Below are positions 1-50,442 of a stretch of 64,000 nucleotides of DNA, in pieces. Origin of the DNA: Mangrovimonas aestuarii (lineage in GTDB: Bacteria; Bacteroidota; Bacteroidia; Flavobacteriales; Flavobacteriaceae). Under the pieces are notes generated by a model. It did not search any database. It saw only the letters and a list, made by a program, of their open reading frames with translations, and was not told the DNA's origin. Within the stretch, counting starts at the first letter, position 1. The number at the start of each line of letters is the position of its first letter. The translations under genes were made by a program, and so were the position numbers. The stretch lies in NCBI RefSeq assembly GCF_028767185.1, contig NZ_JARACK010000004.1, positions 186,001 to 250,000 on the forward strand, given 5' to 3'.

Positions 1-252
1 AATCAACCTGTCAAGTTGTTGGATTTTATTGAAGCTATTGAAAAAGAAACGGGTATTGCAGCTGAAAAACTAATGATGCCTATGCAACCTGGTGATGTTG
101 AAAAGACTTGGGCTGATGGAACAGCATTAACTGTCGATTTCAACTATACTCCAAAAGTACCACTTATAGTTGGAGTTTATAAATTTATATCATGGTATAG
201 GACTTATTTTAAAATAGCTCTTGAATTACAAAACAGTGAAAACACAAAATAA
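1..252 (+). CDS. C-terminal end of a UDP-sugar 4-epimerase-like extended SDR (5' truncated by window)
   Basis: The reading frame is open from the first base and ends at a TAA at 250-252, so only the last 83 residues are seen. The stretch MMPMQPGDVEKTWAD, followed by a tyrosine-containing segment and a final VGVYKFISWYRTYF, is the typical C-terminus of UDP-glucuronate 4-epimerase-like enzymes of the CapI/LspL type. These extended short-chain dehydrogenases act on UDP-sugars in the cytoplasm. The NAD-binding and catalytic parts lie upstream of the window, so the exact substrate cannot be judged. Its last bases overlap the start of the flippase gene, so it probably belongs to the same operon. 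Confidence 0.8.
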   Translation, partial: NQPVKLLDFIEAIEKETGIAAEKLMMPMQPGDVEKTWADGTALTVDFNYTPKVPLIVGVYKFISWYRTYFKIALELQNSENTK

Positions 253-1678
253 GAACTTAAAACAAAAGTCAAAAGCTGGTTTAATCTGGGACTTGTCAGG
301 TACTTTTGTTCGACAAATTGCAACCTTTGTCGTTTCCATAATACTTGCAAGAATTCTTATACCCGAAGATTTTGGGGTAGTTGGTTTGGCGCTAGCTTTT
401 ATTACCATCAGTAGTGTTTTTATTGATGTGGGATTTACGGATGGTTTAATACAAAAAAAAGAAGTTGACGATATAACCTATTCCTCTATTTTTTACACCA
501 ATTTAGTATTGAGCTTATTACTAGGCTTATCAATTTTTTTATTGTCACCAGTACTTGGAAGGTTTTTTGGCAGCCAAGAAGTAGTGAGCATATTGAAATA
601 TTTGGCTATAATACCTCCGATAGGGGCTTTGGGTAAGGTTCATGCTGCAATGTTAACAAGAGGCTTGCGCTTTAAATCTTTAACTCTAAGAGATATTTTT
701 GCAACTCTTTTTGGTGGTGTGGTTGGAATTGTTTGTGCGCTTAATGGTTTTGGTGTATTTAGTTTGGTTTGGCAACAAATAACAGCTGCTTTAATTGGGG
801 CTATTATGCTATGGTTTGGAACAGGGTGGATTCCAAAGGCACAATTTTCATGGAAAAGTGTAAGGGGGTTGTTATCCTTTTCGAGTTTTGTTTTTTTTGA
901 TCAAGCACTTAGACAGGTTTTTCTGAAAATAGATACCTTATTCATTGGTAAGGTTTTTTCACCTGTAACACTAGGTTTTTATTCAAGGGCTGAATCATTA
1001 AATTCACAGATTACCAATTACTCTTCAAGTAGTTTAAGAAAGGTTATGTTTCCTATACTAAGCTCTATTCAAGAAGATGATGAACAATTTCAAAGAGTCT
1101 ATTATAAGGTATTTGATTTTGCGACATTTCTTTCTTCTACACTTTTAGGAGTACTATTTTTTCTAAGCGATCAGATAATTGTCTTCCTTTTAGGGAGTAA
1201 ATGGATCCCAAGTATTGTTTTGTTCCAAATATTAATATTTAGAACTCTCTTCGCACCTCACGGAGCATTAATGGGAAAGTCTCTATTAAGTAAAGGGTAT
1301 TCCAGGGTTAAGTTTAACCTAAGTTTAATTCAAAGGCTTGTTTTATTGTTACCAATGTTAGTGGGTTTGTTTTTTGGAATTAAGATTTTTGCTTCTGCCG
1401 TTGTTTTTGGTTCTTTTTTAGGTTTTATACTTTATTCATGGGCGGTAGATAAATATTTGAATCTCAGTTTCAAAAGGCAGATTTTAGGGTTTTTATACCC
1501 AATGTTACCATTCTTTATTTTAATATTATTTAAGGCATTTGTTTTTAATGGTTTAAATTCTATTTATTATGCCCTAATTTTCATAGGTTTTCATTTTACA
1601 TTTTTGTTATTAACCAAACACAACGGATTTTTATTTGGTAGACAAGAATTAACAAAACTGATTAAAAAACGAATTTAA
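236..1678 (+). CDS. Wzx-type polysaccharide flippase (MOP superfamily)
   Basis: This integral membrane protein of about 480 residues has some 12-14 hydrophobic segments. The N-terminal pattern, SKAGLIWDLSGTFVRQ followed by ARILIPEDFGVVGLA, is typical of lipopolysaccharide/teichuronic-acid flippases of the WzxC/TuaB group. Such proteins turn undecaprenyl-pyrophosphate-linked repeat units across the inner membrane. No ATG lies near the start. The frame can begin at GTG 236 (chosen, giving MKTQNKN) or TTG 221, and both overlap the preceding epimerase gene. It is the only flippase seen in the window and pairs functionally with the EpsG-like polymerase at 5.9 kb. The family call is firm; the transported unit is unknown. 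Confidence 0.87.
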   Translation: MKTQNKNLKQKSKAGLIWDLSGTFVRQIATFVVSIILARILIPEDFGVVGLALAFITISSVFIDVGFTDGLIQKKEVDDITYSSIFYTNLVLSLLLGLSIFLLSPVLGRFFGSQEVVSILKYLAIIPPIGALGKVHAAMLTRGLRFKSLTLRDIFATLFGGVVGIVCALNGFGVFSLVWQQITAALIGAIMLWFGTGWIPKAQFSWKSVRGLLSFSSFVFFDQALRQVFLKIDTLFIGKVFSPVTLGFYSRAESLNSQITNYSSSSLRKVMFPILSSIQEDDEQFQRVYYKVFDFATFLSSTLLGVLFFLSDQIIVFLLGSKWIPSIVLFQILIFRTLFAPHGALMGKSLLSKGYSRVKFNLSLIQRLVLLLPMLVGLFFGIKIFASAVVFGSFLGFILYSWAVDKYLNLSFKRQILGFLYPMLPFFILILFKAFVFNGLNSIYYALIFIGFHFTFLLLTKHNGFLFGRQELTKLIKKRI

Positions 1679-46999: not shown

Positions 47000-47848
47000 A
47001 TGAAAAAAAATCTATTTAAAGCAAGTATGGTTTCAGCTATATTCGCTTTTTCGCTAGCTTTTACTGGCTGTAGTAAGGAAGACACTTTATCCGAACAAAA
47101 TCAGAATCAAGAGCAGAACATGGTCGAGGTAGTTTTGGCTGCGCAGATGGATCAAATAACTACGAGTATTGAAGACTTGATTATTGAAACCTACCAGAAT
47201 CAAGAAAGTGAAACTTCCAGGCAAAACACAGAAAACCAGGTAATGAACTCAGATTGCATGTCAATTTCTGCAGTTATCCAAGCGGGGTTCAAACAGGTGA
47301 CCATTGATTTTGGAAATGAAGGGTGTTCTATAAATGGATATGTTTATAAAGGAAAGATAATCATGACCTACGATCCAGACCTTGAGGCCATGGAAGACAG
47401 TATAAATTATACCCTCGAGGACTTTTACTTTGATGGGATTAACATTGATGGGAGTAGCAATATTTTAAGGCAATTATCCAATGAAAATGGTAATCCTCAA
47501 TTTACACATACTGTAGATTTAACGGTAAGTTGGCCAAATGGTATGCAAGCCACACGTGATGGACAGGTTGTAAGAGAATGGGTGGAAGGTTTTGCAAGTG
47601 GTAGTTTTCAAGACAATGTATTTGAAGTTACTGGTTACTGGGATGCAAACTTCGTAAATGGAAATTCGCATACTTATGAAGTGCTTACTCCTCTTAGGAG
47701 AGAAGCTACTTGTTGGTACTTTGTGAGTGGAACACTTGATGTAGAACGCCCAAATTTTGGAGGTGTACTTGATTATGGAAGCGGAGAATGTGATAATCAA
47801 GCAGTTTTTACCTTAAACAGTGGTGTTGACGTTAATGTAACTTTGTAA
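47000..47848 (+). CDS. Putative lipoprotein, function unknown
   Basis: The 282-residue protein has a lipoprotein signal peptide ending AFSLAFTGCSK, with the cysteine at residue 24. A glutamine- and asparagine-rich linker (residues about 30-40) and a helical segment follow. The C-terminal half is built of beta strands, such as KIIMTYDPDLEAM, FYFDGINIDGSSNI and RDGQVVREWVEGFASGSF. I do not recognise a family. The strand-rich part with repeated edge strands suggests a lipocalin- or barrel-like surface lipoprotein. It is a single-gene unit, with a promoter in front and a strong terminator behind. Confidence 0.75.
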   Translation: MKKNLFKASMVSAIFAFSLAFTGCSKEDTLSEQNQNQEQNMVEVVLAAQMDQITTSIEDLIIETYQNQESETSRQNTENQVMNSDCMSISAVIQAGFKQVTIDFGNEGCSINGYVYKGKIIMTYDPDLEAMEDSINYTLEDFYFDGINIDGSSNILRQLSNENGNPQFTHTVDLTVSWPNGMQATRDGQVVREWVEGFASGSFQDNVFEVTGYWDANFVNGNSHTYEVLTPLRREATCWYFVSGTLDVERPNFGGVLDYGSGECDNQAVFTLNSGVDVNVTL

Positions 47849-47925: not shown

Positions 47926-50442
47926 TTATTCTATTACCAATCTTTTGGTTTGAATAACTTTAGATCCGTTTTTCAAACTTACTAAATAAACTCCAGCTTT
48001 TCCTGATAGATCCATTTGAATGGACGATTCACCTTGGTATACTGCCTTACTCATTATGTGTCTTCCAAGTAAATCATGGATTTCAATATTGTCTACTTTT
48101 GATTGAGGCTGAAAGTCAACAAAGAATTTTCCACCAGAAGGGTTCGGATATAAATGCATGTTGTTTGAGAATCCTATGTGCTCTTCAATGCTTAAATTAT
48201 TTTCGGCAGGTAAGTTTGCATAAGAAATTAAATAGGAATTTACAATCAAGTGAGGGTTGAAGCCTTCATTGCAATTGTCGCAAGTTACTCCTGTTATACA
48301 GTCTGGGTTGTTTGGATGACAATAGTCGTTGTAGGATTCATCGAATACATAATCTAAATCGATACTGTTGCTATTAATAAAAGCAGTCATATCAAAATCG
48401 AAATACTGTGCAATGGTTCCTGGGCACCATCCAGCTCTATTGTATTGCCAAGTTCCAGCTTGTGGGCTGCAGTTATCTGGGTTAGGGTTACAAATAACCC
48501 AATTGTTTTGAGTGAAGGTTTGTTGTCCATTTACCCAAATATGGTGGGTATTATTGCTAAATTCTGCTGCGTTGCTTGTGTTCATGGCTCCCCATCCATG
48601 TCCAGTAGATACTAGTTTTATTTTTGCGGTTTGAGTGCCTTCAGAAAACGTTAGGTTGAAATCTTCTGTAGGTTGTAAGTTGGCCATATCTCCGAACTGA
48701 TAGGTTTGGTTCCAAAGCTTTTTTACTGTACTGTAAGGGTAGTTAGGAGTGCCAGCTTGGTAATTTAACTGAAGCGTATATAAAAAGCCATTACCTGTAG
48801 TTCCCAGGTTTACCCTGAATTTTGTTCGTCCGCTTAACAGAGACATGAAATCGGTAAGGTCTATTTGGTGCTGGCAGCTAACACCATATGGGGTAATATA
48901 TCTAATGATATTGTACCATTCACCATCTTTTCCTAAAACTTCAATTGAGGAAACTCTATCCCAAGGGTCGCACCCTCCATTGGGGCAATCAATAAATAAG
49001 GTAGCGGTAATTTGGTTAAAAGCACCAGTATAACTTGGTAAATCTGTTTCTACGGTTACAGATGGTACATCTGCATACACCCAAACATCGTCTGTAGCCA
49101 ATACAGTTTGTGTTGTAGCGTTTTGGTTTAAGTTAAAAGTAGTGGTTTGATTCCCTGCAGCCCCAAAATTGTTAGTTGATGTAACAACTAAATTATGGCT
49201 TCCCCATGATGTAGGAGTCCACCAGCCTGTATAGTGGCCATTTCCATAATTTGTTAATTCAACATTTTCACCGTCAACTGAAGCAGATACACTTTCTATG
49301 GAGAATACATCTGTGTATTCAATACCTACTTTAAATGCAATTTGAATGGGAGTTAAGGAAGAGGCATATGCTGTTCCTGCTAATGGATGTAACGTTTCTG
49401 TTTGGGCTAAATTTAAGTTAGGGTCTACAACCGGAAAGGTCACAAATACATCGGGAGCTGGCAGATAATTTTCATCTCCTGATTGGCTAGCCTTAACCGT
49501 TACCTCACCAGCTAAACCAGTTAGAGTTACAATATTTCCATTAACAGTGGCAGGGCCTGAAATAATCTCGTAGCTAATGGGCAAGTTAGAGTTAACTGTT
49601 GCCTGAAGCGAAAAAGGATCATCTGTTGTAATTTTTGTTCCAACAAGAGGAAAGTCGATGGCTTGAAAATTACTATCCAAAATTCCACTGAAGTTTGAAG
49701 TGCTTCCTGTTAAGGCAAAGTTGTTTAAATCGGCATTCTTGTTAGCGGTGTTACTAAAATCCAATAATTGGGAAATACCGCTGTTGTTACCATCGGGTGT
49801 ACCTTGGTTAAACTTATAATAAAGTTCTAGATTCGCTTCGTCTCCATTGAGTTCGTTGTTCATCATATTTTGGATTTCCGATTGCGTTAAAGCCTTACTC
49901 CACAATGAAACTTCGTCTGATCTTCCTTGAAGCAGAAAATTATACCCAGCTAAAATACACTTACCAATAGTGAAGGGTCTGTTTGTAGATGAAAAGGTAC
50001 CAGAAGCTGTACTACTACCAATAGAAACTCCGTTAAGGAATATCTCTACTGTATTTTGGTTAAATACCCAAGCAAAATGTTGCCATTGTCCTGCCTGAAT
50101 GATGCCCTCAGCGGTAGTAACTTGATGTAGCCCAGTGGTAGTTACCAATCTACATTGAAGTTTACCGTTACCTAATTGAATGAGGTACATTTCTCCACTA
50201 CCCGTTCCCCCACCGCGAATACTCATCATGCCTTGACCGTAGCCTAGGACATCTGAGTAAAACCAGCCAGCCATGGAAATAGTATTATTGCCATTTACAA
50301 ACTGGGCACCATTAGGTAATGAAACATAATCGTCTACACCATCGAAATGCAAATATTGATTTGATTGAGAAAACCCTAAAAGCGTTGTAAGCGATAGGGT
50401 TACTAGTATTAGTACTCTTTTTTTGATATGAATATTTTTCAT
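47926..50442 (-). CDS. Secreted LamG / PNGase F-like protein with T9SS type A sorting domain
   Basis: The 838-residue protein (ATG 50442 gives signal peptide MKNIHIKKRVLILV...LGFSQ; a longer frame upstream adds no signal) has a LamG-like lectin domain (about residues 25-190). An Ig-like region and a PNGase F-like module (about 445-745) follow, then a T9SS type A sorting domain (LYPNPSGGKFFVDF to the end). The PNGase part shows CPNGGCDPWDRV, WYNIIRYITPYGV, STGHGWG, AAEF and NRAGWCPG. These match blocks I recall from the Elizabethkingia enzyme, including the equivalents of Asp60, Glu206 and Arg248. Residues matching Glu118 and Trp120 appear replaced. It probably removes glycans from glycoproteins outside the cell, perhaps with altered specificity. 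Confidence 0.82.
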   Translation of the reverse strand: MKNIHIKKRVLILVTLSLTTLLGFSQSNQYLHFDGVDDYVSLPNGAQFVNGNNTISMAGWFYSDVLGYGQGMMSIRGGGTGSGEMYLIQLGNGKLQCRLVTTTGLHQVTTAEGIIQAGQWQHFAWVFNQNTVEIFLNGVSIGSSTASGTFSSTNRPFTIGKCILAGYNFLLQGRSDEVSLWSKALTQSEIQNMMNNELNGDEANLELYYKFNQGTPDGNNSGISQLLDFSNTANKNADLNNFALTGSTSNFSGILDSNFQAIDFPLVGTKITTDDPFSLQATVNSNLPISYEIISGPATVNGNIVTLTGLAGEVTVKASQSGDENYLPAPDVFVTFPVVDPNLNLAQTETLHPLAGTAYASSLTPIQIAFKVGIEYTDVFSIESVSASVDGENVELTNYGNGHYTGWWTPTSWGSHNLVVTSTNNFGAAGNQTTTFNLNQNATTQTVLATDDVWVYADVPSVTVETDLPSYTGAFNQITATLFIDCPNGGCDPWDRVSSIEVLGKDGEWYNIIRYITPYGVSCQHQIDLTDFMSLLSGRTKFRVNLGTTGNGFLYTLQLNYQAGTPNYPYSTVKKLWNQTYQFGDMANLQPTEDFNLTFSEGTQTAKIKLVSTGHGWGAMNTSNAAEFSNNTHHIWVNGQQTFTQNNWVICNPNPDNCSPQAGTWQYNRAGWCPGTIAQYFDFDMTAFINSNSIDLDYVFDESYNDYCHPNNPDCITGVTCDNCNEGFNPHLIVNSYLISYANLPAENNLSIEEHIGFSNNMHLYPNPSGGKFFVDFQPQSKVDNIEIHDLLGRHIMSKAVYQGESSIQMDLSGKAGVYLVSLKNGSKVIQTKRLVIE

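Follow-up and report, generated by a model that had tools for sequence, protein, structure and literature searches.

A LamG-fused, PNGase F-like protein of Mangrovimonas aestuarii with substitutions at the positions of Glu118 and Trp120

PNGases cut sugar trees off proteins and are the standard tools for N-glycan release. The subject of this study is a PNGase F-like gene of Mangrovimonas aestuarii, fused to a LamG domain and lying on the minus strand of a 64,000-nucleotide stretch of contig NZ_JARACK010000004.1 (positions 186,001 to 250,000, hereafter the window), whose product departs from PNGase F at two active-site positions, 118 and 120. Papers are cited by PMC accession. PNGase F carries Glu118 where a core alpha1,3-fucose would sit, and so shuts that sugar out; this Glu marks the type I enzymes. 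Gly380 of PNGF-II and G388 of the Bacteroides massiliensis enzyme stand at the same place, and Gly instead of Glu118 is given as the signature of enzymes accepting core alpha1,3-fucose; the B. massiliensis enzyme cleaves plant and bee-venom glycoproteins. Type II enzymes carry an N-terminal bowl-like domain, and the Bacteroides group 1 enzymes have Asp at the 118 place (PMC9522356). Six characterised superfamily enzymes leave the space beneath the chitobiose open and are reported to be active on plant or invertebrate glycans, including core alpha1,3-fucosylated substrates. RNase B and bee-venom phospholipase were substrates for most of the six, and one of them, PNGaseL, acted on every substrate; most have a His/Glu pair, PNGase F being the exception, and two, PNGaseL and PNGaseDr, take their aromatic platform from a different loop (PMC12381499). 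What that paper shows as a 'lime green loop' is probably the 118-120 loop. No LamG-fused PNGase was found described in the open-access literature searched.

In the window protein each of the following profiles scored above its curated cut-off. Laminin_G_3 scored 84.6 bits (cut-off 27.6), N-glycanase_C (PF09113), at residues 590-691, 52.4 bits (cut-off 25) and Por_Secre_tail (PF18962) 41.9 bits (cut-off 27) in Pfam, and the NCBIfam model TIGR04183 for the sorting tail of the type IX secretion system (T9SS) scored 48.5 bits (cut-off 23). The original prediction, made from the sequence alone, of a PNGase F relative with LamG in front and a type A sorting tail behind is thus borne out. LamG was the only N-terminal domain above its Pfam cut-off, no search having been aimed at a bowl-like domain. 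N-glycanase_N (PF09112) gave no Pfam match to the window protein at E values up to 1, though the fold covers that jelly roll; it was matched at E ≤0.001 by 12 of 29 aligned relatives, and the N-terminal jelly roll of the window protein is covered both by its phmmer alignment to PNGase F and by the fold match. The closest solved structures by sequence were the PNGase F entries 3pms, 1pnf and 1pgs (E 3.8e-27 to 9.9e-27), with 1pnf aligned to residues 480-702 at E 8.1e-27; the zebrafish acid PNGase Ngly2 (9lwg) matched at E 2.8e-6. A weak Big_7 match (E 0.0012, below the Pfam cut-off) was seen in the linker of one relative, L073.

An AlphaFold2 model of the protein had a mean predicted local distance difference test score (pLDDT) of 77.9 and a predicted template modelling score of 0.58. 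Its top-ranked match was PNGase F (1pgs, Z 33.2), with 286 residues in chain range 4..314 aligned at a root-mean-square deviation of 2.1 A, followed by 9lwg at Z 28.0 and the remaining PNGases at Z 24.8-25.6; the best unrelated chain reached Z 17.7. The LamG part of the model resembles LamG/pentraxin folds, the best being PAPP-A at Z 17.7.

Residue equivalences were determined from MAFFT alignments. The catalytic Asp60 and Glu206 of PNGase F correspond to D495 and E627, and Trp59, Arg61, Arg248 and Trp251 to W494, R496, R669 and W672. Glu118 is replaced by G547 and Trp120 by T549, with Thr119 kept as T548 between them, and Trp191 and Trp207 are replaced by H615 and F628. All five positions named in the original prediction, which had Asp60, Glu206 and Arg248 conserved and Glu118 and Trp120 replaced, were read correctly. 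Because the run from R543 to T549 is gap-free in the alignments, the match at 118-120 is independent of gap placement, and neither Glu nor Trp is found at those positions by sequence alignment. The two type I marks, an acid at 118 and Trp at 191, are both absent (G547, H615). One type II mark is present: in L136 and L135, relatives of PNGF-II, the counterpart of G547 is the Gly of the VGNY/IGNY letters.

The region was found in 65 of 397 genomes drawn from the window's family. Twelve family genomes, the window's own counted, hold the gene itself or a relative of 61-79% identity, after which identity drops to 45-51% and then to 35% or less. Draws of 395 order and 395 phylum genomes, both of which contain genomes of the window's own family, gave no further match of at least 61%; the best others were 38% among the matches listed, and 55% (G867). 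Neptunitalea sp. Y10 (Flavobacteriaceae) has an ortholog which is the same protein as that of G564 and shares 70% identity in the catalytic region. Position 118 is Thr in it and position 120 Tyr, so the loop letters quoted in the original prediction vary even among orthologs.

A tree was built from a chosen set of 44 rows, without the loop columns, and leaving out a class of about 1150 residues described below, the 740-residue relatives and the type II sequences L132-L138 and L143. The 12 aligned LamG fusions formed one clade with support 99/96, and the changes needed on the tree were one for LamG, two for the aromatic at 120 and four for the acid at 118. LamG was called by motif within the clade, and by Pfam in 12 of the 29 members of alignment A1, a tally not made by name. 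At 118 the LamG clade has Gly (nine), Ser (two) or Thr (one), and at 120 Gln (five), Thr (three), Ser (two) or Tyr (two). The sister clade, 11 proteins without LamG, has Asp (eight), Glu, Gln and Ala (one each) at 118 and Trp (eight), Tyr (two) and Phe (one) at 120, ie an acid in 9/11 and an aromatic in 11/11. The other 21 rows have Glu in 12 and another residue in nine at 118, and Trp in 17 and Tyr in four at 120. An aromatic at 120 is therefore present in 32/32 rows outside the LamG clade, a count which holds for the tree set only. With no acid at 118 in 12/12 LamG fusions and no aromatic at 120 in 10/12, the alteration is more than a chance event in one protein and is a trait of the whole clade. 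All 11 sisters, and 11 of the remaining 21 rows, likewise have His at 191 and Phe at 207; His at 191 is shared by most non-type-I relatives in the comparison.

Trp59, Asp60, Arg61, the His at 191, Glu206, Arg248 and Trp251 are invariant in 12/12 LamG-clade proteins, and F553 and Y555, in the 118-120 hairpin, are aromatic in all 12. All 23 rows aligned from the LamG clade and its sister have C708, H709, P710, C715, C721 and C724. A sister protein, L083 of G504, has Glu for Asp60 (WER); each of the other 43 rows keeps the Asp. The alignments gave loop letters of IGNY/VGNY for type II relatives, IGNW for the B. massiliensis chain and IDTW for 4qhb, the group 1 enzyme of B. vulgatus. With its prevailing Asp and Trp the sister clade resembles group 1 (IDTW), and the LamG clade appears, as far as the tree shows, to have acquired the type II Gly independently, though lacking the NVMEMAGQ segment of type II and, in most members, the aromatic.

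Comparison of the LamG clade with its sister fully separated 28 of 282 columns. Six of the 11 columns in loop 545-555 were among them, compared with 22 of the 271 columns outside it (Fisher p 1.8e-4; with the N-terminal strand, mostly gapped in the sister, excluded, p 4.0e-5), and an equally dense 11-column stretch arose anywhere in 104 of 20000 shuffles. A thirteenth LamG-clade genome, G1099, examined by motif only and outside the 12 aligned, has two identical, inverted gene copies with identical flanks (L146/L147, at G1099:C30:197645-198541 and 220340-221236). This duplication may be an assembly artefact, contamination of that genome being listed at 7%.

Compared to the type I PNGase F of Elizabethkingia meningoseptica (1pnf, 1pgs, 3pms), the window protein shares the fold and Trp59, Asp60, Arg61, Glu206, Arg248 and Trp251, but differs at 118, 120, 191 and 207 and adds LamG, the T9SS tail and the Cys-rich segment 708-724. 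The type II, or group 2, enzymes PNGF-II (4r4x/4r4z) and B. massiliensis B035DRAFT_03341 (7zgn) share with it the Gly at 118 and the His of a TGHG motif. They keep, however, a Tyr or Trp at 120 and an NVMEMAGQ-like segment, neither of which the window protein has; they carry the bowl-like domain where it has LamG, and overall similarity is lower (Z 24.9). Ngly2, an active enzyme, resembles it in the replacement of Glu118 (by Ala), in His546 at the Trp191 place and in EF at 206-207 (alignment; PMC12753239), but has Trp480 at the Trp120 place, His for Arg61, and protease-associated and thioredoxin-like domains. PNGaseL (Flavobacterium akiainvivens), which is reported to have a T9SS signal, and PNGaseDr are superfamily members compared by their published description. 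The sisters (L076-L083, L094, L141, L142) are 45-55% identical in the catalytic domain, with a T9SS tail and mostly the same Cys-rich signature; they differ in having Asp at 118 and Trp at 120 (8/11 each) and another N-terminal domain or none, L094 and L077 having an F5/8 type C domain there.

Loss of Glu118 was rejected as a novelty in itself, there being precedents in PMC9522356 and PMC12381499. Loss of the aromatic at 120 is rarer, but PNGaseL and PNGaseDr are reported precedents for it. The feature thus belongs to a known kind of variation in the family, in which the double loss of acid and aromatic is a new twist.

On balance we think it probable that the window protein is an active, T9SS-exported cell-surface PNGase with the usual Asp/Glu pair and an opened core-GlcNAc (N-acetylglucosamine) site, and that it releases core-decorated N-glycans. 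The T9SS would export the enzyme, which would stay on the cell surface or be set free there, and D495 and E627 would hydrolyse the GlcNAc-Asn amide. Gly547 would remove the side chain that blocks core alpha1,3-fucose in type I enzymes, and the usual loop would no longer supply the aromatic platform that lies over the second GlcNAc and the beta-mannose. Together the two changes would free space at C3 of the first GlcNAc and weaken the hold on the second. With the core-GlcNAc site opened in this way, release of core-decorated N-glycans is to be expected, ie core alpha1,3-fucosylated, plant- or invertebrate-like N-glycans would be released in addition to mammalian ones or in their place. LamG probably holds the enzyme on glycoconjugates, and the glycan would be removed to expose the protein, not to be eaten. 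Because Gly at 118 is the published alpha1,3-fucose-accepting signature, the specificity probably differs from that of PNGase F, and from the shared substitutions the whole LamG-fusion branch probably accepts core-decorated sugars which ordinary PNGase F rejects. The idea of a deglycosylase for a different N-glycan, put forward in the original prediction, therefore keeps its direction through that signature (PMC9522356); its assumption that the change is unusual by itself is not supported, since 9 of the 21 outside rows lack an acid at 118 and six enzymes reported to be active have an open site (PMC12381499).

Several observations weigh against an active enzyme of this kind. Two loops near the site, 586-590 and 617-621, have pLDDT below 50, and the input to the model included 29 rows of the window protein's own relatives. 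The NVMEMAGQ-like segment with the substitute Glu of type II enzymes falls in a gap of the window row; that Glu is probably the published PNGF-II Glu418 (its chain index of 390 fits an offset of 28, and Gly380, at index 351, fits one of 29). The W480A mutant of Ngly2 kept only feeble activity (PMC12753239), and W480 aligns with Trp120 (numbering offset 25), so 10 of the 12 LamG-clade proteins may be weak unless another loop supplies the aromatic. The separating columns all lie on one tree branch and are not independent events, and loop 545-555 was chosen after it had been seen. The original prediction had pointed to the loop in advance, but its changes may all belong to that single branch.

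The site could simply be open, giving a broad or high-mannose-preferring PNGase that does not favour core-modified glycans in particular. The six superfamily enzymes already assayed are the model for this, with an open site, a range that for most takes in both RNase B and bee-venom phospholipase (all substrates for PNGaseL), and in two cases an aromatic borrowed from another loop (PMC12381499). Gly at 118 is, however, closer to the alpha1,3-fucose-requiring type II enzymes than to a merely open site, and we give this explanation a modest chance. Ordinary type I specificity, with other residues filling the site and the range of PNGase F, would be in keeping with the retained catalytic pair and with the aromatics F553 and Y555, which could reach the glycan. 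It is improbable, given that an acid at 118 is absent in 12/12 LamG-clade proteins and that a type I paralog, with both Glu118 and Trp120, is already encoded in the window genome.

If instead the protein were a glycan-binding pseudoenzyme or adhesin, its LamG and jelly rolls serving for attachment without cutting, the loss of both acid and aromatic would be in keeping with that. The window genome also contains a cluster of LamG open reading frames (ORFs), of which several end in T9SS tails, and the glycoside hydrolase families GH92, GH29 and GH20 were not found in it. The invariance of Asp60, Glu206, Arg61, Arg248, Trp59 and Trp251 in all 12 proteins would be needless in a dead enzyme, and the chance of this explanation is slim. 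A specialist for algal or other marine N-glycans, bearing core modifications that no known PNGase accepts and steered to algal surfaces by LamG, is very unlikely. None of the type I, type II and Bacteroides sequences in the comparison combined Gly, Ser or Thr at 118 with aromatic loss, and carbohydrate-active enzymes (CAZymes) specific for algal N-glycans are called 'yet to be discovered' in a 2023 review (PMC10154615); nothing found favours algae over plants, invertebrates or others, however, and glycan-degrading neighbours were not noticed, nor GH92, GH29 or GH20 found in the window genome. The broadest form of the argument would give the LamG clade its own mode of N-glycan core recognition, the third in the superfamily, with neither the type I Glu118 nor the type II substitute Glu and Tyr/Trp. 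Both contacts would have been lost in one step with the gain of LamG, the choice of substrate partly passed to the lectin, and the enzymes would act on core-modified marine or algal N-glycans uncut by known PNGases. We regard this as rather unlikely, and prefer the T9SS-exported PNGase with an opened core-GlcNAc site.

LamG joined the PNGase F family in at least two ways, since a second class of LamG-PNGases seems to nest the LamG within the catalytic domain. These proteins are about 1150 residues long (full-length L160-L167, eg L161:596-4024 (-)). All eight have C-GEWD, the Trp59-Asp60 motif, near residue 75-110, and all eight have a [TS]PYG motif (TPYG in seven) some 530-540 residues after it; about 24 residues lie between the two in PNGase F. 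LamG lies upstream of the TPYG motif in 7/7 truncated members, and phmmer aligned both halves of the class to PNGase F in order, the first half weakly. In a model of L161 (mean pLDDT only 65.6), residues 24..830 align to PNGase F 4..306 (Z 19.5, 3.4 A over 263 residues). Residues 288-503 of the model form a LamG/pentraxin-like domain (Z 19.4 to PAPP-A). LamG thus seems to sit in an insert of some 530-540 residues that splits the N-terminal catalytic jelly roll between the Trp-Asp and TPYG motifs. The 118-120 loop of the eight has Trp in three, Phe in one and no aromatic in four. In the wider alignment L014, L016 and L018 of the class have Trp at 120, and L056 and L060 a gap there; as L014, L016 and L018 carry LamG yet keep Trp, LamG fusion alone does not force aromatic loss.

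The window genome has three PNGase F-like genes, ie the LamG fusion, the type I paralog L003:1396-3078 (-) and L001:1483-3093 (-). The nearest chains to the last are those of B. vulgatus, B. massiliensis and PNGF-II, and it has FGTTGAG at a similar place. Sugar use was judged from GH92, GH29 and GH20. None was matched in the window genome, whereas of the 14 genomes used as controls 3 or 4 gave a match to each; GH18, GH85, GH38 and GH95 were not sought. On the absence of the three, evidence which leans one way within that scope, deglycosylation exposing proteins to proteases is favoured over sugar feeding. The gene is flanked by genes read by eye as pnp and accD/fba, an order shared, among 13 contexts, with L149, L150 and L159 only, the other nine differing. 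No shared glycan-degrading neighbour was noticed in the 13 contexts, whose neighbours were not run against Pfam. The convergent neighbour (47000..47848, plus strand, 282 residues) has a lipoprotein-like start (FTGCSKED) and is without a relative among the neighbours in the other 12 contexts. Elsewhere in the genome, G000:C12:156938-168248 is the LamG ORF cluster, with several LamG domains, 31-37% identical to that of the window protein, and some T9SS tails. The features of the gene itself are collected in Table 1.

Table 1. Features of the LamG-fused PNGase F-like gene; positions are those of the window
Feature	Position	Strand	Basis
Coding sequence, 838 residues, LamG-fused PNGase F-like T9SS cargo	47926..50442	minus	ORF translation
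Signal peptide, residues 1 to ~26, MKNIHIKKRVLILVTLSLTTLLGFSQ	50365..50442	minus	extent judged by eye; model helix 2-22
LamG domain (Laminin_G_3, PF13385), residues 34-191	49870..50343	minus	Pfam and model fold
Linker, beta-strand Ig-like stretches, residues ~260-440	49123..49665	minus	model secondary structure
PNGase F-like catalytic domain, two jelly rolls, residues 442-742	48217..49119	minus	Pfam, PNGase F alignment, fold
W494-D495-R496, equivalent to Trp59-Asp60-Arg61 of PNGase F (catalytic Asp)	48955..48963	minus	alignment
Reshaped loop, residues 545-555, densest in columns separating LamG clade and sister	48778..48810	minus	column comparison
G547-T548-T549, equivalent to Glu118-Thr119-Trp120 of PNGase F	48796..48804	minus	alignments
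H615, equivalent to Trp191 of PNGase F	48598..48600	minus	alignment; PMC12381499
E627-F628, equivalent to Glu206-Trp207 (catalytic Glu)	48559..48564	minus	alignment
R669-A-G-W672, equivalent to Arg248 to Trp251	48427..48438	minus	alignment
Cys-rich signature CHPNNPDCITGVTCDNC, residues 708-724, of LamG clade and sister	48271..48321	minus	alignment
T9SS type A C-terminal sorting domain, residues 764-837 (Por_Secre_tail)	47932..48153	minus	Pfam and NCBIfam

The core specificity of PNGases is a practical limit of the tools for N-glycan release. The LamG clade and its sister with the type I-like Asp/Trp form a natural pair for finding the residues that set core-fucose tolerance, and genome G715 has one protein of each kind, L073 (Gly, Ser) from the LamG clade and L142 (Asp, Trp) from the sister. 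If the LamG-fused protein is active, it would be a possible enzyme for the core-modified glycans of algae or invertebrates.

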